From: Vigna angularis
Lineage: Eukaryota > Streptophyta > Magnoliopsida > Fabales > Fabaceae
Length of the DNA: 64,000 nucleotides
Assembly (NCBI RefSeq): GCF_016808095.1
Contig: NC_068975.1
Location: forward strand, 7,566,001 to 7,630,000
Direction: 5' to 3'
Numbering within the stretch: position 1 is the stretch's first letter; each line of letters opens with the position of its first letter. Below are positions 1-55,312 of the stretch, in pieces. The position numbers were made by a program, and so were the translations under genes. The notes below the pieces were generated by a model that was not told the DNA's origin, did not search any database, and saw only the letters and a list, made by a program, of their open reading frames with translations.

Positions 1-296
1 AAATTACAAAACAAAAATAAGATGATGGAAATCTTAAGTCATTTGTCTTTCTTGTAAATCGTCAAACTCTTGTTTTTCGAAAATAGCAAAAAAGAATAAA
101 AAAATGATAATCGAAAACAAAAGTTGCAGTGTCAGATTTTTTCGAGGTCAAAATGTTGAATCAAAAATAACAATTTGATACTTTTTTTTTGAGATGTTTG
201 TGCGCATGTTTCTTGAAAACCTTCACCCTTTACCTTTTCCAAAATAAAGGATTTTTCCCAACAAACACTGTCACTACCCTCAGTAACAAAGTAAGC
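1..296. other. AT-rich sequence, nothing recognised
   Basis: No coding potential, RNA gene or repeat is recognised here. It lies beyond the broken 3' end of retroelement A and does not match the part of A's LTR that would be expected next, so a rearrangement junction falls near 297. Confidence 0.5.
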
Positions 297-835
297 CTTA
301 ACGTGACAGTGGCCCCTTCTCCCCTTTTTAGTCTTTAAGAATAATATTCCGGACACTGCTTTTCAATTTGGATTTTGGACACATTCAATCATATCTTTTG
401 TCAAGGCAAATGCTCAAAAACCAAAACCAATATCGTTAGTGGTGGCCCCATGTTTGTCGTCCAAAATGCTGAATGTCCGTGTGGAGTGGAAGTCTGCACA
501 TTCTTTTTCTTTCCATTCAACCATGGCTTCCTCACGTTGCAGCTGCCAAGCAGTTACTGCATTTGCTCTCTGCTGTACCTCCGCTGAGACTCTTTTCTAA
601 CTTCATTGCTGGACCGAAAAGCTTCTTTCATCCCCTGCTGGTCGCTCCTGCTGCTGTTCCCACCGTGCACCTCTCAAGCTACTGCTGGGATGGTGGACCT
701 AGCCTTGAAGTGTTGGATGCTTGAACTGCTGGAGTTGGAGAACCGAGAGCTCTTCCTTCATGTGCGTGATGGTGCTGGAGCTGGACCAGTTGCTGGATGA
801 AGGTCTGGATGCATGGAGGCTGGACGTGAGGACCG
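297..835 (-). repeat. Internal LTR fragment of retroelement A
   Basis: Nearly identical to 5663-6205, the middle of A's complete LTR, with only scattered substitutions. Neither LTR terminus is present. Similarity starts abruptly at CTTAACGTGAC and stops near GTGAGTGCTG, where the sequence jumps to internal DNA. This is the remnant of A's 3' LTR after a deletion that also removed the adjoining internal DNA: the equivalent of B 31635 to about 33297 is missing. Confidence 0.8.
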
Positions 836-1686
836 TGAGTGCTGGACGTGAGGACCCTGAGTGGCATTTCCTGACTTCCCACTCTCTCTCTACTCCTGTC
901 TCCTCCTCTCTCTTCTCCTCTGAGCGTCTGGAGCCTGCGCGGAGCCTCTGCCACCGCGCCTTCTGAAGAGTCTGAGATTAGCGAGGAGCTCCTCTGCCAG
1001 CCTACTACTCCAGGTAAGTCATCTGCACCTAGATCTACCTTTCTTTCTGCCTTCATTTAAATTTTTCTTTCTTCTTTATTATTTTTTTTTCTTCTCTGCT
1101 TTCCTCTTTTCTGCTCTCCCTTTCTTTCTACTTACCCTTTTTTTTTCGCGTTCCTCTTGCCTGCTCTTCCTCTCCCTTTTTCCTGCTTTTCATTTTTTTT
1201 TTTCCGATTATTTTCCATTTCCTGCTTCAATCTTCTCCTTTTCAATTTTTTTATATTTTGAAACTTAAAACACTTAAACACATAAAACAACACTGTCTAA
1301 AAACTTAAGGGGTATATAGGCTGGAAACCAGACGTTAATCTCCCTTCGATTGAAGGTATTGCAGAGACAATCGGGTAGAACAACGCCACGTACCCCACTT
1401 AAAACTAAAAAACACAGAAACATAATATACATGAACAATATGGACAAGGACAACTGGACGTAGATCCGTTTAGGACCCTTTTGCAAGGACCGTGAAACAG
1501 ATCTGAGACCAGACACTGAAACATCAAAGACTGACAGGACAAAAAAATAAATCTAAAAGGAAACAAGAACAAATAAAGAAAACACAGAACTAAGAATCTA
1601 ATTTTTTTTATGCTTTTTTTTTATGTTTTGTTTTTCTTTTTTTTATGTTTTTGTTCTTTTTATTTTTATATATTTTTTTTATTTAG
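836..1686 (+). other. Untranslated first exon and intron 1 of WOX-like gene A
   Basis: The segment to 1013 ends in a consensus donor, CAG|GTAAGT. The intron runs 1014-1686 and ends in a pyrimidine-rich tract plus TTTAG. Element B has the same arrangement (donor at 33473, acceptor at 34051). No open frame with an ATG runs across the junction into the homeobox exon, so the first exon is probably 5' untranslated. Its 5' limit cannot be seen. The intron is T-rich, as plant introns usually are. Confidence 0.5.
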
Positions 1687-1701
1687 AATATATTGAGAGG
1701 A

Positions 1702-2254
1702 ATGATGAGTGAGATAGAATCAGAGAGATACACCAGTCAGCGGTGGCGTCCTACCGAAAATCAGACCCAGATGATGACCAGAATCTACAACTTTGGGGTC
1801 ACACACCCAAGCAGAGCGCAAGTTGTCGAGATCACGTCTCGACTAAGGATCTTCGGAGATGCCAGCGAATACAACGTGCACTGCTGGTTCAACAACCACG
1901 GCAATCGGGTCAGGCGCTGGCAAGCGGAGATAGACCCCACTGGCACTCAGTTTTCACAACTGCCGCTATATATGTATGGTAAGACCCTGATCACACCTCA
2001 ATTTTTTATTGAAATTTTTCACTTCCTCTTCTATTATTAACACAAGTTTTTTTTTGTTGTTGAAAGAATACGACTGGGTGATAATGAGGGCACCGAGGCT
2101 GCTGAATCTGTTTCCCGTTCCGATCATCATTGACGATGATAGAGATGAGAGACAAATCCCTCCACCCATGCTTCTCACATTCCGAACCAGAGCTCCCTCA
2201 ACGGAGCTCTCCCTTAGACCACCACAACCAGCTCGAGAATTCTTCCAGTTTTAG
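1702..2254 (+). CDS. WUSCHEL-type (WOX) homeodomain protein gene carried in retroelement A
   Basis: Two coding exons, 1702-1978 and 2067-2254, flank an 88-bp phase-1 intron (TATG|GTAAGA ... GAAAG|AA) and give 154 residues. Residues ~12-75 match a WOX homeodomain: RWxPT at the start, PSRAQ and ITSRLR before an FG turn, and a recognition helix with NVxxWFxNH and R-R. Variable changes include Gln-to-Asn within WFxN and Lys-Ala to Gly-Asn after NH. Residues ~103-110 read LLNLFPVP, resembling the WUS-box (TLxLFP), and ELSLRPP near the C-terminus recalls an EAR-like motif. WOX proteins are nuclear transcription factors controlling stem-cell and organ fate. This copy is antisense to its host element and shorter than typical WOX proteins. 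I chose the first ATG in the homeobox frame. Whether it is expressed is unknown. Confidence 0.8.
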
Positions 2255-3031
2255 TGTTTTATGTTTTTTTTTTTTTTATGTTTTTTTTGCTGGCCGAGTG
2301 TGGCCAGAATTTGAATAAGGCATGTAATCTGAACAATTAATTTTTTTTTTTTATGTTTTTATTTTTTTATGGTGTGTAATATTAACGATCAGAAATGATC
2401 GACCCCTGAACAACTTTATTTTCACATATATCTACTGCAAATTTATTTTCAGATCTGATAAATTTCCTTTTCTCAATTACTGTAATTTTTTTGCAATGAT
2501 GAATGAAATCTTTCTTAGTCTAAACAAATTTTCAAACAATACTGAGTATGAAATAACTAAGAAATTTATTTACAGTGAAGGAAAATAAGGAAAATTAAGA
2601 TCAGAAGTGAAAATTTTTATTGGTATGAAATAATAAGATAGTGAGGGTCGAAATAAAATCAAGGAATATGCAAAATAATTTTTTGAATTTTTGATTTTTT
2701 TTTTAAGGATAACAATTTGAAAACTAAGAAAGAAAAATAAATATACATATTAGAATACAGATTTGGCACAAAAACATTTTATCACAATTTTTATGTTTTA
2801 TTTTTTATATTTTTTTTTATTTTTAAAAATAACAATTCGAAAACTAAGAAGAAAAGGAAAAACAAACTTAAAAGAAAAACAAAATGAAGAATCTTCCCGA
2901 GACCACACTTAAACTACACTGTCCTAAATGTTTTCTAAGCATAAGATCATAAACTAAAACAACAAACAGATAAAGGACAAGTGCACTAAAAATATGAAAA
3001 CGGGGAAGAAAGAAAAAGAAAACTTCCCTGG
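2255..3031. other. Non-coding spacer between WOX-like gene and gag in A
   Basis: AT-rich DNA with long T runs and no supported gene. The same spacer, diverged by indels, separates the WOX-like gene and gag in B (34619-35425), so it belongs to the element. It may contain the 3' untranslated region of the plus-strand gene. Confidence 0.6.
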
Positions 3032-4432
3032 TCAGGGTGGCAGTTGCCAATTTTGGATTTGGAGGGAGATGTTCTTCGCCTCAGGATCCAGCATCAAAGT
3101 GTTGAGGACGAACTGCTTCATCCTCCAGATCTGATCAAGTAGTGAGATGTCCTCCACCGCCGGATCTAAACAAAAAATATTGTTTCTGAGCGGATTTAGT
3201 AGGTGCCTTTTGATCTTCGAACTGCTGTATGTACTGGCACCTTTGTCTTCCAGTGTGGGTGCATGCTGATCAAATTTATATGTACCTCCTACAATATGGT
3301 TAGTGCACAATGGTTCCACAGAAATGTCATGTAGAGGTATAACACCCAATCCCAATTCATCATGCTGAGCCTTAGATACAACCTCATAACATGAATCAGT
3401 TTCAAATGTAGAAACAATATCTATAACAGGCTCAGATTCATGTTCAGAGGGAGAATTAAAAACATGCTCAGCAACAATATGATTACAAGCATACCTATCA
3501 TCAGCATAATCTTTAATAACACAGTCAACAGAATAATCAATTTGCGGTATGCTTACCTCCACTTCCTTGAAGATTGGTAGAGTGAGGGAAGATGAAAGTA
3601 GTCTACCTGGTTCAGGATTATTGCTTATTCTTGCCTGGTCCTCAAAATCATCAGCATTTTCCTCAAGTGCAAGAGTGGCCATCTGCCCAATCTGATTACT
3701 CAGATTCTGCATGGCAGCTTGAGTTTCCTACTGGATCTTCATGCTCTCTTGCTTGAACTTGAGATTCTGCATGGTCATCTGCTCCAATAACTCCTGCAAT
3801 GTGGGCTCAGAAGTTGAAGGCTGAGGAATTAATTGAGTAGGGGCATCATACTGCTGAATCTCATATTGCTGGACTGGTGGAGGCATAAAGGTGCTCTGGA
3901 ATGGTGGTTCTTGGTATTGATGTGGGGCATCGTACCATCCCAAGTTAGGGTCATTCCATCCAGGACCGTTGTTGTATCCATCTTGCACAGGGGAAAATTT
4001 GCTCAGAAACTGAAGCTCAAGATATCCCCAATCGGTAACGGATCCTAGAGGAAGAGAATCTTGCCAATCCTTAGCTGCTCCGTGTAATGAGTGTGGAAAT
4101 GCCCTCAAGAAAATGTGATCAAGAGGGACATGTGGAGGCTTCATTGAAGAGCACATGTTGTGGAACTCCTCCAAATGTCTATGTGGGCATTCTCCGGCAA
4201 AACCATGAAACTTAGGGAGCAGATATATCAGTCCAGTGCTAAGAACACAATGAATATCATCCTTAGGTGGGACCGGCTCACGAGGAGCGCGCTCAGGAAA
4301 TTGAGGATGATCATTATAATTTTCATCATAAAATTCAGCAGAATTAAAATCAGAGCAATATGCAGAATAAGAATCATATTCACAGACATTGGCAGAATAA
4401 GCAGTATTCACATAGCCAGAATAGATAGACAT
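3032..4432 (-). pseudogene. gag: gag of retroelement A, one nonsense mutation
   Basis: A frame of 467 codons starts at the MSTYSGYVNTAYS-like N-terminus seen in all three family members. Residues ~60-140 have the plant Ty3/gypsy Athila/Tat gag signature: TTGLI/STGLI, FHGxxxECPxxHLE, FLRAFPHSLxGAAKDW and LPLGSVTxW, then a KFSPVQ segment. A Gln/Met-rich region (LLEQMTMQN) and a long acidic tail ending in WQLPP follow. No zinc knuckle and no protease are visible. A TAG at 3728-3730 replaces a CAG present in B. Gag would form the particle that packages element RNA in the cytoplasm; this copy is broken in the middle. Confidence 0.8.
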
Positions 4433-4956
4433 GAAAAAATAAAACAAATAAAAACTAAATACTAAAAATTACAAAACAGATAAATCACAACACATTTATA
4501 CATGTTACACACACACAAAAGACAGAACATAATAAATTTATTTATTTATTTTTTTTATTTTTTTTATTTAACAGATAAAACACATGCGACACACATACAA
4601 AACATCACATCACAATACAAAATAAAACACAACACAATTAAACATGCTTCAGACACAAACAAGACAGAACAAAATTAAATTTTTTTTTTTTTTAAATTTT
4701 TTTTTTAATTGACAAACATAATACAAAACACATCACAATAAAAATATAAAAGACAAAACATATATTACAACCACGTAATAAAACAAAAAGAGTAAAAATC
4801 TAAAACAAGAACCTGGACTGAAGTGACAACGCCGCCAAAATTTGCTGAAGGTGTCGTTGTCACCCACAAAAATATACAAGACAAAACACACAAAACAAAC
4901 ATATTAACAAAACAAAAATTTACACAACAAAAATCTAAAACCAAACCTCCATTGGT
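4433..4956. other. 5' untranslated leader of retroelement A
   Basis: Lies between the primer binding site and gag on the minus strand. It is AT-rich with long T/A runs. The motif around 4822-4875 (GGTGTCGTTGTC next to GACAACGCCGCC) is shared with B and C, forms an imperfect inverted repeat, and may be a dimerisation or packaging structure. No coding region is seen. Confidence 0.5.
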
Positions 4957-4973
4957 CCCCGGCAACGGCGCCA
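4957..4973 (-). promoter_or_regulatory. Primer binding site, tRNA-Asp type
   Basis: The minus strand reads TGGCGCCGTTGCCGGGG, complementary to the 3' end of plant tRNA-Asp including CCA. It lies 3 bp inside the LTR (starting at 4977) and fixes A's orientation. This PBS type is usual for Athila/Tat elements. Confidence 0.85.
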
Positions 4974-4976
4974 TTT

Positions 4977-7268
4977 TGATACGACTGTCGCGGTCATACA
5001 AATTTGATGTGCATAGAAGAATGCAGTATAGTCTAACTAGTGACTCCTAGGTCGTCTCTCAAGGACCAATATTTGTGGTTCAGTCTTAGATTTAAGACGA
5101 AGGGGGGGGGGGGGGTTTGTCGATGTTTTTGACACTGAAAAATAAAATAAATTAAAAACAACTGAGTTGTAAACACAACTGAATTTAAAAACACTGAAAT
5201 AAATTTTAACGACGGTAAAAACTGAACGGTAAAAGACGGTAAAAACGAAATATGAAAATTAGCAGTGTTTGAAATTAAAATGCTGGAACTGTAATCATGC
5301 ATAAAATGTAACAGCAGACGGTAAAATAAATAGACAATAAAATAAAATCACTTGATTGAAAATGAAATTTATCAAAAGATTCAGATGAAAATGAAAATGA
5401 TCAAATTAATGTAACAAGCGTTCAGAAATAAAATTACATTGCTGGAAAATAAAAACACAGATAGCTTTGGAAAAGGGAAGAGGCAAGAGCCTCTTCCAGG
5501 GGCGTGTCCTAAAACTACTCCTACAATTTACTCTACAAATCTCTTCCATCTTCTCTGCATGCTGCCATCCTTTTATAACCAATTCTCTGACCAAGCATAG
5601 TCTCCTCCCCCTGAACTTCTGGATGTAGCTTCATTCTCCCTGCCAGCAGAATGTGTGCTTTGTCTTAACGTGACAGTGGCCCCTTCTCCCCTTTTTAGTC
5701 TTTAAGAATAATATTCCGGACACTGCTTTTCAATTTGGATTTTGGACACATTCAATCATATCTTTTGTCAAGGCAAATGCTCAAAAACCAAAACCAATAT
5801 CGTTAGTGGTGGCCCCATGTTTGTCGTCCAAAATGCTGAATGTCCGTGTGGAGTGGAAGTCTGCACATTCTTTTTCTTTCCATTCAACCATGGCTTCCTC
5901 ACGTTGCAGCTGCCAAGCAGTTACTGCATTTGCTCTCTGCTGTACCTCCGCTGAGACTCTTTTCTAACTTCATTGCTGGACCGAAAAGCTTCTTTCATCC
6001 CCTGCTGGTCGCTCCTGCTGCTGTTCCCACCGTGCACCTCTCAAGCTGCTGCTGGGATGGTGGACCTAGCCTTGAAGTGTTGGATGCTTGAACTGCTGGA
6101 GTTGGAGAACCGAAAGCTCTTCCTTCATGTGCGTGATGGTGCTGGAGCTGGACCAGTTGCTGGATGAAGGTCTGGATGCATGGAGGCTGGACGTGAGGAC
6201 CGTGAGTGCTGCTGTCCACAAGCTGATGCTGTGTTGTAGAGACCCTGAGCTGCTTCTATTGGTTCATTCTCTGTATCAGCATGCTACCTATTCATCACCG
6301 TGACAACACCTCTTCTTCAATGGTGGTTTCAAGCTGGACATGAGCTGCTGGAAAGGTCACCTCTGTTGTCTACGTGAAGGACGGATGGGCTGGACTGCTG
6401 CTGCTGCTTGGCCGTGAATGCCTCTCCATTCTCTGCTCTACTCATGAAACTTGTTACGGCAAACACTTCACACGCTTGGCAACTGCACCAGCTCAATGTG
6501 GATCAATGGATACAGCATTTTTCTGGCCGTGAACCAAGCTTCTCTCAAGACTTGCTGGACCCGTGAGTATTGCTGCTGTGTGCGTGAAATGCTGCATGTT
6601 ACTGCTAGTGGCTGGCCGTGGAGGTGTTGAAGCTGGACGGTGGTTGCTGGGTCACTCTCCCATTCTCATTTCAAGAATAAAAGCTTATGTGTGGAGTATG
6701 GAGAGTTAGAATGGAATGGACAGTGGAGTGCCGTGTGGTATTTTTCTTCAGCAGCCCATGCGCATCCTTTCTCAGATATTCCCTTTTCAAATTGGTGGTC
6801 CCTACTTTCTAATAATTGGCCGTGAAACCACTTACATTATCTCAATTAAAATAGCACCTCATCATTTTGTAGTTCCATGTGAACGTGCTTGGTTGGTTGC
6901 CACATATTAGATGTGATGAACTCCCTTACTCCGTGCACACCAAATTAATTACCTTCCATCTTCAACTTCCAGCCGCGCATACCACAAGAGCCGTGCTATT
7001 ATTCTTCCAAAGAACCGAGAAAACTATTAAATAACATAGTGTAAAAATGAATATTCTTCCAAATGTCCCAATAATATTTACAGAATTTTCCCTGCACTCA
7101 ATAATGTAAATAATTAGTCTCAGATAATTCAAATTAAGTGGAATAAGAATTTCTGATCAAATTAAGCACAATCAATAAAAACGGGAAAATACTAGACAAT
7201 TAAGCACAATTCCCTAATTAAATCTAGCACAATAAGCTAAGTGAAGTGAAGAAAATAATGATTCATCA
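4977..7268 (-). repeat. 5' LTR of retroelement A (2,292 bp)
   Basis: On the minus strand it begins TGATGAATCATTA and ends GACAGTCGTATCA, giving TG...CA ends. The first ~180 bp and last ~200 bp resemble the LTR ends of B and C, while the core is different. A G14 run lies at 5102-5115. The stretch 5663-6205 is duplicated at 297-835. Short open frames inside are chance frames. Confidence 0.85.
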
Positions 7269-8286
7269 ATGCACAACATAGGAGATATATTTTAAATCAT
7301 CAAAATAACTGGCCATGAACTATGTTTGCTACTTAAGTTGCCATAAGGATTCATACCATCGGTAGCAAGTGCAAGTCTTAAGTTTCTCGGCTCTACACTA
7401 AATTCAGGAAAGGTGCCATCAATGTTCTTCCATTGTGGGGAATCAACTGGGTGTCGAAGAAGATTATCACATTTTCGTCCATCAACGTGCCACATAAGAT
7501 TCTTTGCATCTTCTTTAACAGAAAACAATCGTTTAAACCTAGGTACTATAGGTAAATACCACATGACCTTAGCCGGTGGACCTTCATTGTGTTCATCATG
7601 ATTTCCATCAAGTTTCTTCTTAAATCGTGACGAACCACATGTCGGACACACCTTCATTGAAGCATACTGATCTCTATGCAATACACAGTCATTGGGACAT
7701 GCATGTATCTTTTGGTATTCCAAACCCATTGGACATAGAATTTTCTTCGCGTCGTAATTACGGATAGGTAAAGTGTTATTTTCTGGTAGCATCTCCTTCA
7801 GCAACTCCAACAATTCCGTGAAACTTTTATCAGTCCATCCGTTTCTTACTTTCAAAACAATTTCAAAGTAGTCGATAACCTTGTAAAATTGATGCATCCT
7901 GGATACAGCTCTTGCTCCGAATTGTTCTTAAGACTATCGTACAAATGAGCTCTTCCAAAATTTTCTTCGCCAACGACACGTACCATTTCGTCTAAATGAT
8001 CACTCATCCATTCGTCGACGTAATCCGAACCTCTTAAAGTTGTTGGCTTATATAATACTTCCCCATGCCAAGTCCAAACTGTATAACTTCTTATTATTCC
8101 ATAGACGAACAGATGATCACGGATCTTGTCCAAGTCTTCATATACTTGATTAAGACAACGAACACAAGGGCAAAAATATGCCACGTTCATTGGTTTTGTG
8201 TGTTGTTTAACATATTGTATGAACTCATAAACCCCTCGCTCATACTCTTCACTAATACGACGCTGATGAATCCAGCTTCGATCCAT
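7269..8286 (-). pseudogene. CACTA (En/Spm-type) TNP2-like transposase, N-terminal part
   Basis: The start (8286) has the plant transposase-associated domain: MDRSWI, RxSxEYxxGVxxFI and CPCxxCxN. The frame shifts near 7880 and continues with NGWTDKSFTELLELLKEMLP, a zinc-ribbon-like segment (CPNDC ... CPTCG), WHVDGR and LATDGMNPYGNLSS, the beginning of the Transposase_21 catalytic region. A stop replaces a Tyr codon just after HSSWPVILMI. At 7269 the frame is cut by the LTR of retroelement A, so most of the catalytic domain is missing. The full protein would bind CACTA ends and excise the element. It is clearly dead here, but it identifies the surrounding DNA as a CACTA remnant. Confidence 0.85.
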
Positions 8287-8356
8287 ACTACTACACTAAA
8301 CGAAAAGAATCCATGGAAAAAAACTAACTTACGTAGAGAAACAAAAATAAATACCT

Positions 8357-29674: not shown

Positions 29675-29679
29675 AACAT

Positions 29680-31634
29680 TGGTACGACTGTCAGCGGTAC
29701 AAATTTGATGTGCACGAATTAATGCAGTATATTACTAGGAAGTGACTCCTAGGTCGTCTCTCAAGGACCAATTTATGTGGGTTCAGTCTCAGATTTAACA
29801 CGAAGGGGGGTGTTTGTGTTTGGTTTTGCGAGAAAAAAATAAAAATAAAATTAAAATTGACTGGAATTTAAATAAGACAACTGAATTTAAAAACACTGAA
29901 ATAAATTTTAATGACGGTAAAAACAAGCGGTAAAAGATGGTAAAAATGGAAAATGGAAAATTACGCAATGGTAAAAACAACGTCTGAAAATAAAATGAAC
30001 AGAAAAATAAATTGACAGAATTTAACGGTGCAGAAAATCATGAACGGTAATTTTAACAGATAAAAACATTTAACTGAAAATCAAATTCATCAAGGATTCA
30101 ACGTTTAAATTAAAATTCAACACTTAGAAATAAAATAAAAATGAAATGATCAAACTGTGAAATGAACTACACGCTTCAGAAATAAAATTCATGCATTGTT
30201 TGAAAATAGAATTGGAAAAGAAGGAAGAGGCTAAACTACTCCTAATACAATCCTAAAATCTCTCCTAAAATCTAATGAGTCTTCTCTGCTGCTTGGCTTT
30301 CAATTTATAGCCACTTCTCTGGACCAACACCTGTATAATCCTCCTTCAATTCAGCTTGGTTGTTTTGTCTTATCTCCAATTGGCAGCTCGTGAATTCCTT
30401 CAAACTTCACGTTTGTTGTCTCTAATTGGTAGCTCCTTGTTTCAAGAAATTTCTTTTGTCAAATGTTCAGCTATTGAGCTCCTTGGGCGTGCCAAAGTCA
30501 AGAAGGTGGGGTCCTCCATTTTCTACCTCACTTGTCTTCTTCTTCAATTTGTCGTGTACACTCTTCTCCGTTCCAAGACACCAACCGTAGCCCCCTCATC
30601 TCCCAAACTATTGGATTGTTCAACATCTCCTTCTCCCTTCTCTTTGCTGCACCGTGAGCTTGAAACGTGTTGCTTCTAATATGCTACAACCAAATTGAAA
30701 ATCCAAAAGCTTTTCTTTCCATGTGGGCCGTAAGCTTTTCTTTCTCTACTAAATTCAGCACTTCAATTTTGGAGTAGTGCTTTTTGAACGTGAGCTTTGG
30801 TGGTCCCCCTCTTTGATTCCACTTCAAGTCCATTATGTGTTCTCTTCTACGTGTTCACCACTCTAAGGTGATCAAGCCTTCTTAACAAAACCGTGACCTT
30901 CCAAATGTGGTGGCTCCCACTCATTCCATTTGGTTTACGGCTTTAACCAATTCACACACTCAAAAAGAATTTTCCAATCCTAGGTGGCGGCTCCCATTCC
31001 AACGTATACTTGACTTGCGAAAATGAATTGTAGATGGGCCAATGAATAATTGAATGAGTGCTTAAGAATTCTGCAGCCTATTTCCTTTAAAGAAATCACA
31101 TATCTTATCCTCCAAAGAGCTATAAAACTGTGAGTGGCCCCTTGAAACGTGGTGACTTATTTTTACCATTTTGTTGACTTGCCAATGGTTGCAAAACCGT
31201 GTGGAATGTGCTTCTTCTAAATCAATTTTGTCCATGTGAAATGAGTGACCAATGGACCAAAATAAATCAGCATATAACATGAAATATGCTTCTCCCATAA
31301 CCGTGGCACCATCTTTCCAACTTCAAACAAAAATATTTCACTTCTAAGTTTCCACATAAACACCCAAAACAAATCATTGTGCGGCTTCTTCCAATTAAAT
31401 AACACCGTGTAAATGAATATTCTTTCAAATGTTCCAAATTTTATCTCCAAAATTTTTCCTGTAATCGATAATGAAATTAATTAGCTCAAATAATTCAAAT
31501 TAACTAAAATAAGAATTTCTGATCAAATTAAGCACAATTCAGTAAAATGGGAAAATACTGGACAATTATGCACAATTCCCTAATTAAATCTAGTACAATA
31601 AACTAAATGGAGTGAATAAAATATCGACTCATCA
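29680..31634 (-). repeat. 3' LTR of element B
   Basis: 1,955 bp, essentially identical to 37223-39180 apart from its outer ~20 bp (TGGTACGACTGTCAGCGG against TGGCATGACTGTCGCGG) and a few substitutions. Open frames within it are duplicated identically in the other LTR and are not genes. Confidence 0.93.
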
Positions 31635-33290
31635 AAATAGACCACACTTAGTCTTTTGCACTCCTGGGCAAAATTAAGACTCAAATCAGGGAATGGTTCG
31701 TAGGACATCAAAGGAGTGACACAAATGCAACATACAGAAAAATAAAGACTCACGAGAAAAATAAACAGAATTTACAAAGTTCTCAAGAAGTCTGGACAGA
31801 GAAAAGAAGTAGACAATATCCAACACATAGTCAAGAAAAGCACATACTTACAGAAATCATCCAAGCAATTCAATACATAGCAAAATGATTAATCAGTTCA
31901 AGAGGTGATTCAAAAATAACATAACCTCACAGATGCACTAATAGTGTTTCTCTCAAGTGTTTAGGGTAAATAATTTCAACTCAATGTACTCAAGAAAACA
32001 AACACAAGTAGACTTGGCAAGCTTCTAATATCAACACTTAAAACATATGCATGTTCAGATCTAAAGGTCTTTCAGGGTTGTAATGGGGCCAAGGATAGGG
32101 GAGGATAAAAATATGGATAAGTAGCTAGATCTCAGAAGAATTAGAGGAGCACTGGGAAAAAGTGTAAACACAGTGAAATCTCACCCAAACCTCTAATTCA
32201 ATCCTCTTCTCGACTCCATTATTCACAAAATTATTTTTCATTTTTTCTCTCTTTTTCTCATCAATTTTTTTTTATCCTGTCTCTTTTTTTTTTCTTTATC
32301 ACACAACAGGATATAAATCATCATTTCAAAACATGATGTGGAACCAACTAGCCAATTCATCAGAATTCCCAAGGAGACCACACTTATTCATAAAACACTT
32401 CTATAGCTCCAGACTTCCCTAAGGTTTAGGTAATCATTGTTTTTCACTTAGGGTCAGTGTATGAGCTTTAAAACAAACAAATGGGGAAAGTATAGGCTCA
32501 AAGGGGTTATCAAAGGATAATAACAGGGTAGGCTTATTTGGCTAAAGAGGGTCAAGAAATAAAATGCCTTTATGATTTCTAAACATGCATATAAATCAAG
32601 TCTATCAAAAAGAATCAAGCCAAGGCATATGTGCAAGAAATCAAGAGTCATATCACACAAGAAAGAACATTAAGTGGCTCAAATCTCACACAGGGTATCC
32701 GTGTTATAATTAATTCAACCTCTTGAACACATAATCATCTTTCCAAGCAGAGAAAAGCAAGGATTGCAATCTATAAGTATTAAGTAAGTGAAGGAAAAAT
32801 CTACAACTTAGACAAACTCCAGAAATCAAGAGAAAAATGTAAAATTTATTGCACTCAAGACACACTAAAACAACTTAAAACAGAAAAAATTTAGCACACA
32901 AAAACAAAAAATTTAACACACAAAATACATACTAACATAAACTAACAGAAAAATCAAAATTTCTCCCCAGTAGACCACACTTAAATCACACAATGTCCTC
33001 AGTGTGTTACAATCATCAGATTATCAATTTTAGAGCAGTCAAATAATATAGACAAGTGCAATAAAAAGTTAGGAAATGGGAAGAAATTTTCAGTAACATC
33101 CATCAGTAGATGTTATCAGTGACATCCATCAGCAGATGTCTAAATCACCTAGCACCCATCAGTAGATGCTAATAATAATATTTTTTTTTTTGAAAAAGGA
33201 GATGACCGGCACTGTGACAACAGTTTCGGTGGCAACAACCGGAACTGTTGCTACAGTGGCAGAACATTTGGCTACAAATAGGCAATAATC
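31635..33290. other. Non-coding 3' internal region of element B
   Basis: No gene. On the minus strand it resembles 47640-48751 of element C, including the polypurine-side sequence AGACTAAGTGTGGTCTATTT next to the LTR. It is therefore a conserved non-coding module of the family. A is deleted for this part. Confidence 0.7.
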
Positions 33291-34051
33291 GGCGTCTGAG
33301 CGGCATTTCCCGACTGCCCGCTCTCTCTCTCTACATCTCACTTCTCTCTTCTCTCTCTCCGCTCTCCTCTCTCTCAACCTGAGCGTCTGGAACCTCTGCG
33401 GAGCCTCTGCCCCGGTGCCATCTGAAGAGTCTGAGATCGGCGAGGAGCTTCTCTGCCAGCCTACTACTCCAAGTAAGTCCTCTGCTCCTAGATCTGCCTT
33501 TCTTTCTTCTTTCATGTAATTTCTTTCCATACTCCCCTTTAAGCTTTCCGTTATTCCTTTCCTTTATGCACTTCGTTCTACTTTTCTTTCTGCTTTTTAT
33601 TTTCCATTCTGCCTTCTCTTGTGCTTTCTCTGTTTTGCTCTCCCTTTCCCTTTTCCTGCTTTCCAATTTTTATTATTTTTTCTTTACTGCTTTTCCATTT
33701 TTCTTATTATTAAGCACACTAAAAGAAAAAAAAATAATAATAATCTAAAAACAAAATATGGACAACACACTGGACCTAGATCCGTTAGGACCCTTTGCAA
33801 GGACCTGGACCTAAAACTGGACAAAAACACTGATGGACCTAAAACTGAAAAATGGACAAACCTGAGACAAGATACTGAACATCAAAGACTCACAGGACAA
33901 AATAAATCTAACGGGAAACAAGAACAAATAAAGAAAACACAGAACTAATCTAATTTTTTTTTATGCTTTTTTTTTTCTGTTTTTTATTTTTTTATGTTTT
34001 TGTTTTTCTTTTTTTTTTATGTTGTTTTTTTATATATATATATTTTTTTAG
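33291..34051 (+). other. Untranslated first exon and intron 1 of WOX-like gene B
   Basis: The first exon-like block resembles 870-1013 of A and ends at donor CCAA|GTAAGT (33472/33473). The intron runs to TTTTAG at 34051. CT-rich repeats (CTCTCTCT) at 33320-33375 resemble a plant core-promoter or 5' UTR pyrimidine patch. The transcription start cannot be located. Confidence 0.5.
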
Positions 34052-34066
34052 AATATATTGAGAGGA

Positions 34067-34618
34067 ATGATGAGTGAGATAGAATCAGAGAGATACACCA
34101 GTCAGCGGTGGCATCCTACCGAAAATCAGACCCAGATGATGACCAGAATCTACAACTTTGGGGTCACACACCCAAGCAGAGCGCAAGTTGTCGAGATCAC
34201 GTCTCGACTAAGGATCTTCGGAGATGCCAGCAAATACAACGTGCACTGCTGGTTCAACAACCACGGCAATCGGGTCAGGCGCTGGCAAGCGGAGATAGAC
34301 CCCACTGGCACTCAGTTTTCACAACTGCCGCTATATATGTACGGTAAGACTCTGATCAAATCTCCATTTTTATTTATTTTTATTTTCCTCTTAAATTATT
34401 AACACAAGTTTTTTTTTTTTTTGTTGAAAGAATACGACTGGGTGATAATGAGAGCACCGAGGCTGCTGGATCTGTTTCCCGTTCCGATCATCCTCGACGA
34501 CGACAGGGACGAACGACAAATCCTGCCACCTATGCCCCCTGCATTCCGCACCAGAGCTCCCTCAACGGAGCTTACCCTAAGACCGCCACAACCAGCTCGT
34601 GAATTCTTTCATTTTTAA
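34067..34618 (+). CDS. WUSCHEL-type (WOX) homeodomain protein gene carried in retroelement B
   Basis: Coding exons 34067-34343 and 34431-34618 are separated by an 87-bp phase-1 intron (ACG|GTAAGA ... GAAAG). The 154-residue product has a WOX homeodomain at ~12-75, LLDLFPVP (WUS-box-like) at ~103-110, and TELTLRPP before the C-terminus. Compared with copy A, the homeobox exon differs by only three bases (Arg-to-His after RW, Glu-to-Lys before YNV, one silent). Exon 3 differs at about 27 of 188 sites, with more silent (14) than replacement (8) codons. The frame is open throughout and splice sites are canonical. It lies wholly inside the AACAT-flanked element, antisense to gag. A nuclear DNA-binding role follows from the family; activity is unproven. 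Confidence 0.82.
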
Positions 34619-35425
34619 TATTTTGTATTTTTTTTTTTTTATTGGCCGAGTGTGGCCAGAATAAGGGTTGTAATATGAACACTTAATTTTTTTTTTTATG
34701 TTTTTATGTTTTTTTTATATTTGGTTTGTAATATTAACGATCATTACTGATCGAACACCGAACATCTTTATTTTCACATATGAATCTACTGCAAATTTTA
34801 TTTTCAGATCTGTACAAACTCCTTTCCTCCATTATTGTAATTTTTGCTCAAATGAATGAAATCTTTCTTAGTTAAACAAAATTTTCAATCAAAGATCTGT
34901 ATGAAACAACTAAGAAATTATTTTTACAATGAAGGAAAATAAGAAAAATTAAAAAATTGAGATCTGAAGTGAAAATTTTCAATGAATTATTGGTAAGAAA
35001 CTGAGGGCCGAAAAAAAATCATGGACTTCGCAAAACAATTTTTGATTTTTTGATTTTTTTTTTAGTAAAAACACTAAAACTCACGAAGCAAATAAAACAC
35101 AAAACACATTTTTTTTTAAATATATAAATATATGTACATCTCATTAAATTTTAATGGAAAGGAAAACTTTTGCACGCTTAAAACAAAATATTTTATCAAA
35201 AAGATTTTTTTTTTTTTTTAAGATAACAATTCGAAAACTAAGAAGAAAAGGAAAAACAAACTTAAAAGAAAAACAAAATGCAGAATCTTCCCGAGACCAC
35301 ACTTAAATTACACTGTCCTAAACGTGTTCTAAGCATAAGATCATCAATTAAAACACTAAACAGATAAAGGACAAATGCAATAAAAGTAGGAAAACAGGGA
35401 AGAAAGAAAAAGAAAACTCCCCTGG
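34619..35425. other. Non-coding spacer in element B
   Basis: AT-rich, no gene. Equivalent to 2255-3031 in A, with the shared blocks TGGCCGAGTGTGGCCAGAAT near 34643 and ATGAATGAAATCTTTCTTAG near 34851. Confidence 0.65.
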
Positions 35426-36832
35426 TCAGGGTGGTAGTTGCCAATCTTGGATTATCAGGGAGATGTTCTTCTCTTCAGGATCCAGCATGAAATTGTTGAG
35501 GACGAACTGCTTCATCCTCTAAATCTGATCAAGTAGGGAAATATCTTCCACCGCCGGATCTAAGCAACAAATATTGTTTATGAGCGGATTTAGTAGGTGC
35601 CTTTTGATCTTCGAATTGCTGTATGTACTGGCACCTTTGTCTTCTAGTGTGGGTGCATGCTGATCAAATTTATATGTACCTCCTACAATATGGTTAGTGC
35701 ACAATGGTTCCACAGAAATGTCATGTAGAGGTATAACACCCAATCCCAATTCATCATACTGAGCCTTAGATACAACCTCATAACATGAATCAGTTTCAAA
35801 TGTAGAAACAATATCTATAACAGGCTCAGATTCATGTTCAGAGGGAGAATTAAAAACATACTCAGCAACAATATGATTACAAGCATACCTATCATCAGCA
35901 TAATCTTTAATAACACAGTCAACAGAATAATCAATTTGCGGTATGCTTACCTCCACTTCCTTGAAGATTGGTAGAGTGAGGGAAGATGAAGGTGGTCTAC
36001 CTGGTTCAGAACTACTGCTTATTCTTGCCTGGTCCTCAAAATATTCAGCATTCTCCTCAGGTGCAAGAGTGGCCATCTGCCCGATCTGATCACTCAGATT
36101 CTGCATGGCAGCTTGAGTTTCCTGCTGGATCTTCATGCTCTCTTGCTTGAACTTGAGATTCTGCATGGTCATCTGCTCCAATAACTCCTTCAATGAAGGT
36201 TCAGAAGTTGAAGGCTGAGGAGTTGTTTGGGCAGAGGCATTATACTGCTGATTCTGATATTGCTGGACTGGTGGAGGCATGAAAGGACTCTCGAATGGTG
36301 GTTCTTGATAATGATCTTGTGGGGTATCGTACCATTCATTGTTAAGATTGTTCCACTCAGGATCGTTGATGTATCCATACTGCTCAAGGGAGAATTTTCT
36401 CACAAACTGAAGCTCAAGATATCCCCACTCGGTAACGGATCCTAGAGGAAGAGAGTCTTGCCAATCCTTAGCTGCTCCTTGTAATGAGTGCGGAAATGCC
36501 CTCAAGAAAATGTGATCAAGAGGGACATGTGGAGGCTTCATTGAAGAACAAATGTTGTGGAACTCCTCCAAATGTCTATGTGGGCATTCTCCAACAAAAC
36601 CATGAAACTTAGGAAGCATATATATCAGTCCAGTGCTAAGAACGCAATGAATATCATCCTTTGTAGGTGGGACCGGCTCACGAGGAGTGAGCTCAGGAAA
36701 TTGAGGATGATCCATATTTTTCTCATCATAAAATTTAGCAGAATTAAAATCACAGTAATATGCAGAATAAGAGTCATAGCTAGAGGCATCCACAGAATAA
36801 GCAGTATTCACATAGCCAGAATAGGTAGACAT
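35426..36832 (-). pseudogene. gag: gag of retroelement B, one late nonsense mutation
   Basis: 469 codons from MSTYSGYVNTAYSVD to a TGA at 35426. It contains the Athila/Tat-type gag core (STGLIYMLPKFHGF, HLEEFH, FLRAFPHSLQGAAKDWQDSL), the LLEQMTMQNLKFKQESMKIQ segment and a long acidic tail. A TAG at 35519-35521 replaces the Trp codon of DQIWRMKQ seen in A and C, cutting 31 residues. The 444-residue open frame is the best preserved gag in the window. No pol follows, so particles and enzymes would have to come from another element. Confidence 0.82.
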
Positions 36833-37200
36833 GAAAAAATAAAAATAAAACAAATAAAAACTAAATACTAAAAATTACTAAACAGATAAATCACAACACA
36901 TTTATACATGTTACACGCATTCAAAAGATAGAACATAAATTGTTTTTTTTAATTAACAGACATAATACAAAACACAACACAATAAAAATATAAAAGACAA
37001 AACATATATTACAACCACGTAATAAAACAAAAACAGTAAAAATCTAAAACAAGAACCTGGACTGAGGTGACAACGCCGCCAAAATTTGCTGAAGGTGTCG
37101 TTGTCGCCTACAAAAATATACAAGACAAAACACACAAAACAAACATATTAACAGAACAAAAATTTACACAACAAAAATCTAAAACCAAACCGTTATTGGT
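36833..37200. other. 5' untranslated leader of element B
   Basis: Between PBS and gag on the minus strand. No gene; shares the GACAACGCCGCC ... GGTGTCGTTGTC inverted-repeat block (37069-37107) with A and C. Confidence 0.6.
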
Positions 37201-37217
37201 CCCCGGCAACGGCGCCA
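37201..37217 (-). promoter_or_regulatory. Primer binding site of element B, tRNA-Asp type
   Basis: The minus strand is TGGCGCCGTTGCCGGGG, the same as in A, 5 bp inside the LTR border at 37223. Confidence 0.88.
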
Positions 37218-37222
37218 AAATT

Positions 37223-39180
37223 TGGCATGACTGTCGCGGTCATACAAATTTGATGTGCACGAATTAATGCAGTATATTACTAGGAAGTGACTCCTAGGTC
37301 GTCTCTCAAGGACCAATTTATGTGGGTTCAGTCTCAGATTTAGCACGAAGGGGGGGTGTTTGTGTTTGGTTTTGCGAGAAAAAAATAAAAATAAAATTAA
37401 AATTGACTGGAATTTAAATAAGACAACTGAATTTAAAAACACTGAAATAAAGTTTAATGACGGTAAAAACAAGCGGTAAAAAATGGTAAAAATGGAAAAT
37501 GGAAAATTACGCAATGGTAAAAACAACGTCTAAAAATAAAATGAACAGAAAAATAAGTTGACAGAATTTAACGGTGCAGAAAATCATGAACGGTAATTTT
37601 AACAGATAAAAACATTTAACTGAAAATCAAATTCATCAAGGATTCAACGTTTAAATTAAAATTCAACACTTAGAAATAAAATAAAAATGAAATGATCAAA
37701 CTGTGAAATGAACTACACGCTTCAGAAATAAAATTCATGCATTGTTTGAAAATAGAATTGGAAAAGAAGGAAGAGGCTAAACTACTCCTAATACAATCCT
37801 AAAATCTCTCCTAAAATCTAATGAGTCTTCTCTGCTGCTTGGCTTTCAATTTATAGCCACTTCTCTGGACCAACACCTGTATAATCCTCCTTCAATTCAG
37901 CTTGGTTGTTTTGTCTTATCTCCAATTGGCAGCTCGTGAATTCCTTCAAACTTCACGTTTGTTGTCTCTAATTGGCAGCTCCTTGTTTCAAGAAATTTCT
38001 TTTGTCAAATGTTCAGCTATTGAGCTCCTTGGGCGTGCCAAAGTCAAGAAGGTGGGGTCCTCCATTTTCTACCTCACTTGTCTTCTTCTTCAATTTGTCG
38101 TGTACACTCTTCTCCGTTCCAAGACACCAACCGTAGCCCCCTCATCTCCCAAACTATTGGATTGTTCAACATCTCCTTCTCCCTTCTCTTTGCTGCACCG
38201 TGAGCTTGAAACGTGTTGCTTCTAATATGCTACAACCAAATTGAAAATCCAAAAGCTTTTCTTTCCATGTGGGCCGTAAGCTTTTCTTTCTCTACTAAAT
38301 TCAGCACTTCAATTTTGGAGTAGTGCTTTTTGAACGTGAGCTTTGGTGGTCCCCCTCTTTGATTCCACTTCAAGTCCATTATGTGTTCTCTTCTACGTGT
38401 TCACCACTCTAAGGTGATCAAGCCTTCTTAACAAAACCGTGACCTTCCAAATGTGGTGGCTCCCACTCATTCCATTTGGTTTACGGCTTTAACCAATTCA
38501 CACACTCAAAAAGAATTTTCCAATCCTAGGTGGCGGCTCCCATTCCAACGTATACTTGACTTGCGAAAATGAATTGTAGATGGGCCAATGAATAATTGAA
38601 TGAGTGCTTAAGAATTCTGCAGCCTATTTCCTTTAAAGAAATCACATATCTTATCCTCCAAAGAGCTATAAAACTGTGAGTGGCCCCTTGAAACGTGGTG
38701 ACTTATTTTTACCATTTTGTTGACTTGCCAATGGTTGCAAAACCGTGTGGAATGTGCTTCTTCTAAATCAATTTTGTCCATGTGAAATGAGTGACCAATG
38801 GACCAAAATAAATCAGCATATAACATGAAATATGCTTCTCCCATAACCGTGGCACCATCTTTCCAACTTCAAACAAAAATATTTCACTTCTAAGTTTCCA
38901 CATAAACACCCAAAACAAATCATTGTGCGGCTTCTTCCAATTAAATAACACCGTGTAAATGAATATTCTTTCAAATGTTCCAAATTTTATCTCCAAAATT
39001 TTTCCTGTAATCGATAATGAAATTAATTAGCTCAAATAATTCAAATTAACTAAAATAAGAATTTCTGATCAAATTAAGCACAATTCAGTAAAATGGGAAA
39101 ATACTGGACAATTATGCACAATTCCCTAATTAAATCTAGTACAATAAACTAAATGGAGTGAATAAAATATCGACTCATCA
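37223..39180 (-). repeat. 5' LTR of element B
   Basis: 1,958-bp partner of 29680-31634. On the minus strand it begins TGATGAGTCGATATTTTATT, and TSD AACAT follows at 39181-39185. Confidence 0.93.
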
Positions 39181-39185
39181 AACAT

Positions 39186-39978
39186 CGTCTGTGCTTAGCT
39201 GGATTTTCAAGGCAGAGAAATTTTTCAACTATCACAACACACCAGACATGGCTAGGGTGGAAATAGCAGCTATGCATTTTAAGGGTGAAGTGGTTCCTAG
39301 GTTTCAAATGTTGCAACGTTTGGCAGCTGTTAATACTTGGGTAGACTTAACCCGTGCCCTTGAATCATAATTTGAATTGCAGCAAACAGGTTCTGTTTCA
39401 GAGTACTACTTAAAATTTATGTCCCTGGCAAATAGATCAGTGGGTTTAACTGATGAGGCACTCCTGAATTTTTTTTTGAGTGGATTAAATGTTGATATTA
39501 AAAGGGATGTTATGGCCTTATCTCCAATTTCATTGTTGAGGGCAGTGGCGTTGGCCAAGTTGTATGAAGATAAATATTGTCCTGCACCAAAACCATCCTT
39601 CACGAAACCAGTGGTTTCATCTTATACAACGAAATCTGTATCACAGCCAGTGCAGCAACCGTATCAGAATCAGCGCATAAATGTAAAAACATCTCTTCCT
39701 CCATTATTACCTACTCCAAATATTCCTCCATTAAAAAATAGCAATGTTAAGAGGATTAGTTCTGCAGAAATGCATTTGAGAAAGGACAAGGGTCTCTGTT
39801 ATTTTTGTGATGAAAAGTTCACTTTTAGTCACAAAAGTCTTAATAGACAATACCTTTTCCTGCAATTAGAAGAAGAGGAAATAGTCGGGCATGATACTGC
39901 AGAGAAAGAAGAAGCTAGTAGTCACAATGATTCGGTGGAAGAACACCATTTATCTCTGAATGCTAAAAAGGTGGATTG
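39186..39978 (+). pseudogene. gag: gag of E, central and C-terminal part
   Basis: Continues the frame broken at 29674 with SSVLSWIFKAEKFFNYHNTP, RFQMLQRLAAVNTWVDL and SVSEYYLKFMSLANR, the Retrotrans_gag pattern. The stop at 39368-39370 falls where chromovirus gags normally continue QF. A zinc-knuckle remnant CYFCDEKFTFSHKS near 39795-39840 has lost its last cysteine. The frame ends in an acidic segment at a TGA, 39978. Confidence 0.8.
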
Positions 39979-40347
39979 AGTGTGGGAACCATTCGATTTT
40001 TAGCTTACATTAACCAACTGCCTGTGGAAGTACTGATTGATGGAGGCAGTTCTGATAACTTTTTGCAGCCAAGGATTGCAAAATTTTTAAAGCTACCAAT
40101 AGAACCTGCTACTTTGTTTCGTGTGATGGTAGGGAATGAGAATTATATGACAGCTGAAGGAAAGATTCAACAGCTTAATATTCAGGCACAGGGACATTCT
40201 TTTGTTTTACCCGTATTTTTACTACCTATTTCTGGAGCAGATCTAATTCTGGGTGCTAGTTGGTTGAAAACCATTGGTCCTCACATTGCAGATTATGATA
40301 CCTTGCAGCTGAAACTACTTCATGAGGGTATATTCACTACATTATAA
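39976..40347 (+). pseudogene. Aspartic protease of E
   Basis: Open frame of ~120 residues with the retropepsin active-site context EVLIDGGSSDNFLQPR, then LPVFLLPISGADLILGASWL, the usual second half. Catalytic Asp is in DGG rather than DSG, as occurs in this retroelement group. It would process the gag-pol polyprotein. It is isolated from gag and RT by stops, hence not functional as a polyprotein. Confidence 0.75.
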
Positions 40348-41940: not shown

Positions 41941-42246
41941 TGATAGGTTTCTGGTGTAGGAACCTTTTGAAACGCACACAACACACTTCCCAAAACTTCA
42001 AAGAATGCTGTATAACCTCTCTTTGTATTATCAACTATCAAGAATACAAAGTACACTAGTGATGAGAGCTTAACCTCCCCCTTACAAGAATTAAAGAATT
42101 CCTGTTGAACTATAATTCTCCAAAAGTCCCCCCTAAACAAAATACAATGTTTATTTAAACAACCCCTTCCCGCCTTTCCTAACTGCCAAGGCAGTTAGGC
42201 CAGCTAATGTTTCTTTCTTCTTTCATACACTCTTAACCTCCTAACA
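41941..42246 (-). repeat. 3' LTR of element D
   Basis: 306 bp, minus strand TGTTAGGAGGTTAAGAGTG ... CAGAAACCTATCA. One difference from 55007-55312. Confidence 0.95.
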
Positions 42247-45383: not shown

Positions 45384-45388
45384 AATTT

Positions 45389-45405
45389 TGGCGCCGCTGC
45401 CGGGG
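45389..45405 (+). promoter_or_regulatory. Primer binding site of element C
   Basis: TGGCGCCGCTGCCGGGG: the tRNA-Asp-type site with one change (GTT to GCT) compared with A and B. Confidence 0.85.
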
Positions 45406-45768
45406 ACCAATGACGGTTTGGTTTTAGTTTTTTGTTATGTAAATTTTTGTTTTGTTAATATGTGTGTTTTGTGTGTTTTGTCTTTTGTATTTTTTGTAGG
45501 CGACAACGACACCTTCAGCAAATTTTGGCGGCGTTGTCACTTCAGTTCCAGGTTTTTGTTTTAGATCTTTGCTGTGTTTTTCGATTATGTTGTATTTATA
45601 TGTTTTTAATTGTACTGTGTTCTATATTTAGTTGTTATTTAAAAAAAAAAAATTATTGTTGATGTTCTATCCTGTTTGTGCCTATAGCATGTTTAAAATG
45701 TGTTGTGTTTTATCTGTTTCATAATTTTTAGTATTTAATTTTTATTTTATTTTTATTTTCATTTTTCA
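45406..45768. other. 5' untranslated leader of element C
   Basis: No gene. Contains the family's GGCGACAACGACACC ... GGCGGCGTTGTC inverted-repeat block at 45500-45540. Confidence 0.6.
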
Positions 45769-54976: not shown

Positions 54977-55006
54977 CCCAATTTAATCCGGCAGGTCGGA
55001 CCAAAT

Positions 55007-55312
55007 TGATAGGTTTCTGGTGTAGGAACCTATTGAAACGCACACAACACACTTCCCAAAACTTCAAAGAATGCTGTATAACCTCTCTTTGTATTATCAA
55101 CTATCAAGAATACAAAGTACACTAGTGATGAGAGCTTAACCTCCCCCTTACAAGAATTAAAGAATTCCTGTTGAACTATAATTCTCCAAAAGTCCCCCCT
55201 AAACAAAATACAATGTTTATTTAAACAACCCCTTCCCGCCTTTCCTAACTGCCAAGGCAGTTAGGCCAGCTAATGTTTCTTTCTTCTTTCATACACTCTT
55301 AACCTCCTAACA
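55007..55312 (-). repeat. 5' LTR of element D
   Basis: 306 bp, flanked by ACTTC (55313-55317). The primer-site region immediately inside reads TTTGGTCCGACCTGCCGG on the minus strand; its tRNA partner is not identified. Confidence 0.95.

Follow-up and report, generated by a model that had tools for sequence, protein, structure and literature searches.

The window analysed here is a 64,000-nucleotide stretch of the Vigna angularis genome (contig NC_068975.1, positions 7,566,001 to 7,630,000), and coordinates below are those of the window. It holds two related long terminal repeat (LTR) retrotransposons, A and B, each of which contains one spliced WUSCHEL-type (WOX) homeodomain gene with a product of 154 residues. 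This gene, hereafter called the cargo, lies on the plus strand, whereas gag and the primer-binding site (PBS) place both elements on the minus strand; the cargo is thus antisense to its carrier and sits between gag and the 3′ LTR. Its parts are as follows.

905–1013, plus strand: A, 5′ non-coding exon of the cargo, with a CAG/GTAAGT donor at its 3′ end and an undefined 5′ start
1014–1686, plus strand: A, intron in the 5′ untranslated region, GT...TTTAG, low identity between A and B
1702–1978, plus strand: A, coding exon with the WOX homeodomain (PF00046; STENOFOLIA and WUSCHEL sequences in PDB, E about 1e-10)
1979–2066, plus strand: A, coding intron, GTAAG...AAAG; the donor motif is common to 30 of 30 subfamily-I loci (L019–L048)
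2067–2254, plus strand: A, coding exon with the WUS-box LLNLFPVP and the EAR-like STELSLR, motifs conserved among relatives
33171–33309, plus strand: B, conserved, promoter-like block upstream of the cargo, with matches in other loci
33310–33472, plus strand: B, 5′ non-coding exon, start approximate, donor GTAAGT at 33473
34067–34343, plus strand: B, coding exon with the homeodomain (PF00046, E 3.5e-6)
34431–34618, plus strand: B, coding exon with the WUS-box LLDLFPVP and the EAR-like STELTLR

An earlier note on this DNA had described a gene of two coding exons with WOX hallmarks at the same place in both elements, between gag and the 3′ LTR. Gene and location were found as described, the coding exons being joined at GT/AG junctions, and every motif named was recovered: RWRPT, ITSRLR, NVHCWFNNH and LLNLFPVP in the product of A, with the variants RWHPT and LLDLFPVP in that of B. 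The profile search proposed in the same note gave significant matches of the first coding exon to the Pfam Homeodomain family PF00046, above the curated cut-off in both cases (E 8.6e-7 for A, 3.5e-6 for B), and among PDB sequences the homeodomain exon of A matched STENOFOLIA (E 5.8e-11) and WUSCHEL (E 2.1e-10). Since the Pfam and PDB sequence matches are significant, a chance origin of the homeodomain call is excluded. The second coding exon contributes a WUS-box in which the first T is replaced by L, followed by the EAR-like segment. The start at 836 given in the earlier note falls at the junction between LTR and cargo in A; the non-coding 5′ exon ends at 1013.

The elements themselves, and a related element C, are made up of the following features.

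297–844, no strand assigned: A, left (3′) LTR remnant, 99.6% identical to 5664–6211
3032–4411, minus strand: A, gag frame interrupted by one internal stop (Retrotrans_gag match at E 0.0016, short of the curated cut-off)
4953–4973, minus strand: A, PBS TGGCGCCGTTGCCGGGGACCA
4977–7269, minus strand: A, 5′ LTR, inner end placed from the sequence, outer end from similarity to B
29675–29679, no strand assigned: B, left target-site duplication (TSD) AACAT
29680–31634, minus strand: B, 3′ LTR, 12 differences to the other LTR over 1955 sites
32939–33086, no strand assigned: left copy of a direct repeat of about 150 bp bracketing the cargo of B, 73% identical to 35258–35405
35258–35405, no strand assigned: right copy of this repeat, of which element C has one copy
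35519–36832, minus strand: B, gag, ended by a premature stop
37197–37217, minus strand: B, PBS TGGCGCCGTTGCCGGGGACCA
37223–39180, minus strand: B, 5′ LTR
39181–39185, no strand assigned: B, right TSD AACAT
43444–51690, plus strand: element C, a related gag-only LTR element without WOX cargo, TSD CTACC

Element B (29680–39180) is intact. Its two LTRs differ at 12 of 1955 aligned sites and are bounded on both sides by the 5-bp TSD that the earlier note had reported. Element A (about 297–7269) is damaged, with a left LTR reduced to a 548-bp remnant that is fused directly to the cargo, and for this reason no TSD check is possible. The gag of both contains a premature stop. The LTR pair, TSD (AACAT and CTACC) and PBS, with no pol seen, identify B and C as non-autonomous LTR retrotransposons. 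No pol-like open reading frame (ORF) was recognised, by reading, among the frames of at least 100 residues between the LTRs of B or of at least 110 residues in C, and no reverse transcriptase was seen in A, B or C. The PBS TGGCGCCGTTGCCGGGGACCA presumably matches tRNA-Asp, and this tRNA-Asp-like PBS and the type of gag suggest that the three elements may be Ty3/gypsy elements of the Athila/Calypso type.

Element C is 75–79% identical to B across long alignable pieces. It lacks the cargo, strong matches to the cargo protein being found in the 64-kb window at A and B alone. The simplest reading of these sequences would be that the cargo was inserted into the element family, with flanking element sequence duplicated. 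The converse, that elements inserted around a pre-existing gene, is rejected for B, where the cargo lies within intact LTRs and a TSD; the related element C has no cargo. A sequence resembling a polypurine tract in the sense of the element, AGACCACACTTA, was noticed by eye at about 31637–31650, 32972–32985 and 35292–35306; it adjoins the 3′ LTR of B, recurs in both repeats that bracket the cargo, and may mark the route by which the cargo was added.

The cargo is not confined to the window. When the V. angularis genome (448 Mb) was searched with the subfamily-I protein P0002, at least 150 homeodomain-exon matches of this subfamily were obtained, 140 of them free of stops, in agreement with the earlier proposal that the gene has been amplified with its element. 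The count is a lower bound, as 150 of 1012 first-look candidates were scored and B, but not A, is among the matches listed, although A should score higher. Two further subfamilies, 34–50% identical to P0002, were recognised: subfamily II, with 25 matches at 69% identity or more, 7 of them with stops, and subfamily III, with about 42 at 55% or more, 12 with stops. The signature of subfamily I, to which A and B belong, is WFNNHGNR, that of II WFQNHGNR, and that of III WFQNYGYR together with TLDLFPIP. Other homeodomain copies are 61–68% identical to subfamily III (G000:C9:22902438, C9:28350195, C10:23355295, C10:9775760 and others) and perhaps form a fourth subfamily.

Protein searches returned 60, 26 and 76 proteins. 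Except for a single Rehmannia WOX in the second search, all bore the names of V. angularis, V. radiata or V. umbellata; the last figure represents 76 of 2204 candidates, every one Vigna-named, and the absence from other legumes is to be read within the word and length filters of the search. Among prokaryote genomes and virus contigs, 19 and 24 pattern matches, respectively, were obtained, none of which tblastn confirmed as a relative of the cargo.

Among the 30 subfamily-I loci examined, 21 have a gag no further than 1.5 kb away, in every case on the opposite strand and downstream of the cargo, so that A, B and the 21 gag-linked loci share an antisense gene in the internal region 3′ of gag, the position and orientation described for the aORF-3R class of extra ORFs. 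None of 10 subfamily-II loci has the gag C-terminus in its 1.5-kb flanks. Within wide flanks, six of seven further copies are situated between LTR-like repeats, and the side on which the PBS lies makes the cargo antisense in all six. The subfamily-II copies L049, L050 and L051 are enclosed by direct repeats of about 1.8–2.1 kb (98.7, 97.2 and 96.4% identical; the right repeat of L050 is truncated where the sequence examined stops), with TGGTATCAGAGC beside one repeat in L049 and L051 and a one-base variant in L050. No match to the A/B gag was found in these three; the WOX exon is the sole open frame of at least 110 residues in L049 and one of two in L050. In subfamily III, L062 (degenerate repeats, about 70–88%) and L063 (96–98%) have the same PBS motif, TGGTATCAGAGC, and several loci, among the matches listed, share DNA beyond the gene with subfamily-II elements. 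The subfamily-I copy L065, devoid of an A/B-type gag, lies between repeats of about 3 kb that are 98.9–99.5% identical when neighbouring stretches are compared; its PBS-like motif, TGGCGACTCCACTGGGGA, differs from the other two. The cargo thus occurs in elements with three different PBS, which we take to match tRNA-Asp, initiator tRNA-Met and tRNA-Arg. A PBS antisense to tRNA-Arg is mentioned for Ogre-type elements (PMC9289625).

The conserved sequence extends beyond the coding exons. The 5′ non-coding exon (905–1012 in A) is 83% identical between A and B, as against 65% in the next intron, and the upstream block at 33171–33309 has counterparts in 29 of 30 loci of subfamily I and 8 of 10 of subfamily III, but in 0 of 10 of subfamily II. 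The sharing of this block and of the coding-intron donor across loci argues for capture of the cargo as genomic DNA, presumably including regulatory sequence as well as introns.

At the protein level, membership in the WUS-type homeodomains is indicated by PF00046 and by the PDB, in which STENOFOLIA and WUSCHEL are the best matches by both sequence and fold. A model of P0002 built from 30 aligned sequences is reliable in the homeodomain blocks (pLDDT 86–95) and low in the remainder (mean pLDDT 66, pTM 0.46); in a PDB fold search with it, the top 11 of 121 matches were all WUS or STENOFOLIA. The residues equivalent to R38, N90 and R94, with which WUS reads bases (PMC7203112), persist in all 28 representatives and in all 22 copies sampled. 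The proportion of positions with a majority residue common to the three subfamilies peaks in the EAR-like segment (9 of 12), followed by the WUS-box region (7 of 13) and the homeodomain (22 of 59), and falls to low values in the linkers (4 of 27 and 2 of 20) and at the ends (0 of 12 and 0 of 9). The WUS-box consensus of the modern clade is TLxLFP; subfamily III has TLDLFPIP, and subfamilies II and I have LLDLFPIP or LLNLFPVP, with the first T changed to L. The claim that the DNA-binding domain and a WUS-box-like motif are both retained was therefore borne out. In a tree of the short homeodomain that includes Arabidopsis rows, the cargo forms a clade of its own (support 98/95), apparently outside the canonical groups, with long branches flagged. 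Together, sequence and model support, but do not show, that the cargo protein is a small WUS-like repressor.

Comparison of A with B gives a first indication of how the protein has evolved. The coding sequences differ by 19 silent and 10 replacement changes, with a ratio of non-synonymous to synonymous substitution rates (dN/dS) of 0.141. Most of these changes lie in the WUS-box exon (18 silent, 8 replacement; dN/dS 0.109), whose nucleotide identity of 85.6% is little above the 82.5% of the non-coding 3′ flank. In simulations of this exon, neutral change produced on average 18.4 replacement or stop changes, and 8 or fewer occurred in 0 of 5000 random placements. The gag of A and B has a dN/dS of 0.588, and its split into silent and replacement changes differs from that of the cargo (Fisher P 0.002). 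The homeodomain exon is 99% identical, silent sites included. It forms part of a mosaic of high- and low-identity tracts suggestive of recombination.

Wider samples were examined through the ratio of non-synonymous to synonymous differences per site (pN/pS). In a set of 31 copies (29 of the 30 best P0002 matches, A and B), the pooled value over the 15 nearest pairs was 0.080 in the homeodomain exon, 0.287 in the WUS-box exon and 0.181 across the entire coding sequence, whereas the five other frames of the same pairs gave 0.3–2.1, the lowest, 0.315, in a reverse frame. The copy L045 was omitted from this set because it did not fit the acceptor pattern used, a pattern that favours copies whose splice sites are intact. 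Seven pairs matched for gag distance gave 0.051 for the homeodomain exon, 0.222 for the whole cargo and 0.387 for the gag fragment, with an intron divergence of 0.197; here, as between A and B, the cargo ratio is below that of gag (0.39–0.59). A systematic sample took every sixth of 120 lower-ranked P0002 matches, all 20 of which were retained, together with A and B. Its ratios were 0.256 in the homeodomain exon, which was stop-free in 20 of 22 copies, and 0.283 in the WUS-box exon, stop-free in 22 of 22. Coding capacity is thus conserved across copies, as it is in aORF-3R. Constraint on the protein is supported, though in this sample it is weaker than in the top-ranked set. The phenomenon is broader than the earlier note supposed, in that elements with three PBS types carry the cargo and its protein bears signs of purifying selection.

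We consider it probable, on the basis of these sequences, that in Asian Vigna a host-derived WOX homeodomain gene has turned into an accessory gene, which LTR retrotransposons carry in antisense orientation. Antisense orientation would leave the introns and poly(A) signal of the cargo unprocessed in the genomic RNA of the element, and an intron-bearing cargo could in this way survive retrotransposition. This could account for the uniform orientation of the copies in which it can be read. Template switching between co-packaged RNAs could then have spread the cargo unit among element types, a proposal suggested by the mosaic identity of A and B and by the presence of the same gene in elements with three PBS. 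The elements may use the cargo; most likely it would alter expression in meristem or germline-forming cells and so favour transmission of the element. It is tempting to speculate further, although we would advance this only tentatively, that a mobile miniature WUSCHEL-type repressor is common to different types of LTR retrotransposon in Asian Vigna, which use it in trans on the stem-cell programme of the host, or on a WUS-dependent stem-cell defence, to gain germline copies.

Several observations weigh against the accessory-gene reading, and some of them concern how the copies were obtained. Every genome sample was drawn by protein similarity, a criterion that favours conserved copies, and the homeodomain-exon ratio of 0.080 in the 31 best-matching copies is far below the 0.256 of the lower-ranked sample, as ascertainment bias predicts. 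With 1 silent and 2 replacement changes between A and B, the homeodomain exon varies too little to reveal selection in that comparison. In the seven matched pairs, the lower cargo ratio is due to a higher pS (0.263, as against 0.134 in gag), pN being about equal (0.058 and 0.052). Stops occur in 10 of the 150 subfamily-I matches; four of these ten extend beyond the donor, one of which, L072, nevertheless has its stop inside the homeodomain exon. Others concern the protein. Of the residues at WUS contact positions, K82 and Y86 have given way to others in all 28 representatives and Q89 to N in each of the 18 from subfamily I, so that affinity and specificity for DNA may differ from those of WUS; and the EAR-like segment of subfamily I reads ELSLRP or similar, most II and III copies keeping LxLxL (SLRL). 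In the window, 5 TGAATGAA sites were found where 8.2 are expected, that is, no enrichment, and autoregulation through such sites was rejected on this ground. As to context, 9 of 30 subfamily-I loci have no gag inside 1.5 kb. Copies outside elements were what the earlier note held would undo its reading, and here the seven copies with wide flanks are divided: six lie between LTR-like repeats, as that reading expects, but L064, whose protein is similar, has no LTR pair, PBS motif or A/B-type gag within 10 kb.

Alternatively, the cargo may be a passive hitch-hiker that does nothing for the element, its constraint reflecting one or a few functional source genes that were copied repeatedly. Insertions can indeed be young, as the 12 differences over 1955 sites of the B LTRs illustrate, and substitutions could then have arisen in a few active source lineages; the stops in 7 of 25 subfamily-II and 12 of 42 subfamily-III matches are also easily accommodated. 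We nonetheless think this rather unlikely, since copies are in elements wherever the context can be read, the cargo ratio is below that of gag (0.14 and 0.59 for A and B, 0.22 and 0.39 for the seven pairs), and L049, one of three copies (L049–L051) with no match to the A/B gag, shows no open frame of 110 residues or more besides the WOX exon, which leaves the WOX gene as the one long gene seen there. A fast-evolving family of WOX-like host genes, perhaps including a domesticated copy, might instead have come first and have been captured by elements several times. Several subfamily-II and -III proteins are annotated as WOX1, 2, 4, 5, 6, 7 or 8 (-like), a few of them in V. radiata and V. umbellata, and the three PBS among the carriers could mean separate captures. 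Against this, the subfamily-II and -III copies are dispersed and multi-copy, LTR-like repeats flank all five that were examined, the upstream block recurs in subfamily I and in most loci of subfamily III, and two subfamily-III copies sit in elements whose PBS is unlike that of A and B; we regard this origin as improbable.

A role at the RNA level, in which antisense transcription would form double-stranded RNA with the genomic RNA of the element and tune its silencing, the protein being irrelevant, has been proposed for antisense ORFs generally (PMC7264820). It would hardly account for conservation that is specific to codons (0.18 in the coding frame of the 15 pairs, as against 0.3–2.1 in the other five), and we find it very hard to credit. 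The suggestion in the earlier note that the element could produce antisense RNA against real WOX genes fared no better. Subfamily-I homeodomains are at most 41–46% identical to the canonical ones compared, and the longest run that the A homeodomain shares is 3 residues with WUS and 2 with STENOFOLIA. Because identity is low and shared runs are short, matches of 21–24 nucleotides to canonical WOX genes are not expected, and such targeting was judged unlikely, the comparison being with canonical WOX genes, not Vigna's own.

The accessory-gene reading has a practical consequence, in that some of the genes counted as WOX in Vigna may be retrotransposon cargo. By sequence, the proteins P0062, P0063, P0065–P0068, P0073 and P0074, named WOX1, 2, 4, 5, 6, 7 or 8 (-like), belong to the cargo family, and entries of this kind are a likely source of wrong counts. 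WUSCHEL-related homeobox proteins are listed among the significantly expanded families of the V. reflexo-pilosa genome (PMC10357499); this expansion may be retroelement cargo.

Some features of the neighbourhood deserve mention. Beside A, pieces of a CACTA-type transposase (Pfam Transposase_21 and Transpos_assoc) lie at 7292–8295 on the minus strand, and the left end of A (window 2–302) is 74% similar to positions 3081–3351 of the stretch around L064, itself a cargo copy. B adjoins another gag/protease-like frame at 39371–40347, named by eye. C is apparently nested within another Ty3-type element on the minus strand (41941–55312), which has 306-bp repeats at 41941 and 55007 (99.7% identical) and, by eye, an integrase-like ORF (42507–43466) and a reverse transcriptase-like ORF (51647–52894). 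The 3′ LTR of C contains an insert of about 1 kb (49640–50636) that is missing from its 5′ LTR.

In the open-licence literature, no description of a WOX gene inside a retrotransposon was found, which accords with the view of the earlier note that such cargo is unusual. With WUS, STENOFOLIA and Medicago HEADLESS, the cargo shares the homeodomain fold, the R38/N90/R94 equivalents, the WUS-box and an EAR-like motif (PMC7203112, PMC6305195). It is shorter, mostly 144–154 residues as against 302 in HEADLESS, its recognition helix is altered with respect to WUS (WFNNHGNR or WFQNHGNR), and it is carried by retrotransposons; in the HEADLESS study (PMC6305195), Tnt1 appears as the mutagen used. Transduction of the Bs1 type likewise places host sequence within an LTR element. 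Transduced sequences are described as usually sense and present in one or few copies (PMC7264820), whereas the Vigna cargo is antisense, intron-bearing (all 30 loci have the donor in the same position) and present in more than 100 copies; it is thus no intron-less sense copy. Another case is the m6A demethylase (2-ODD) domain of orchid Ty3/gypsy elements, reported as a functional extra ORF kept through several rounds of replication (PMC9289625). The added domain there is enzymatic and belongs to a single Ogre-like family; in Vigna, elements of several kinds carry a developmental transcription factor. For Aegilops, a B3 DNA-binding domain within LTR consensuses is mentioned in the same source (PMC9289625).

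A close parallel is aORF-3R, known from maize Grande (gene23), rice RIRE2, Silene Retand (ORF4) and Phaseolus PvRetro13 (ORF2), which is likewise antisense, in the 3′ internal region and conserved in many copies. The Grande ORF is reported to be transcribed from a promoter of its own and to yield a nuclear protein (PMC7264820). The same 2020 review mentions SMC- and transposase-28-like domains, describes the aORF-3R proteins as having no clear database relatives, and treats the origin and function of the antisense extra ORFs of plant Ty3/gypsy elements as open (PMC7264820). Unlike aORF-3R, the Vigna cargo is recognisably a host-type WOX transcription factor, has introns and occurs in elements with different PBS. 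It offers an antisense ORF whose sequence reveals a host origin and a likely biochemistry, and its more than 100 copies, signs of selection and cargo-free relative make the question testable.

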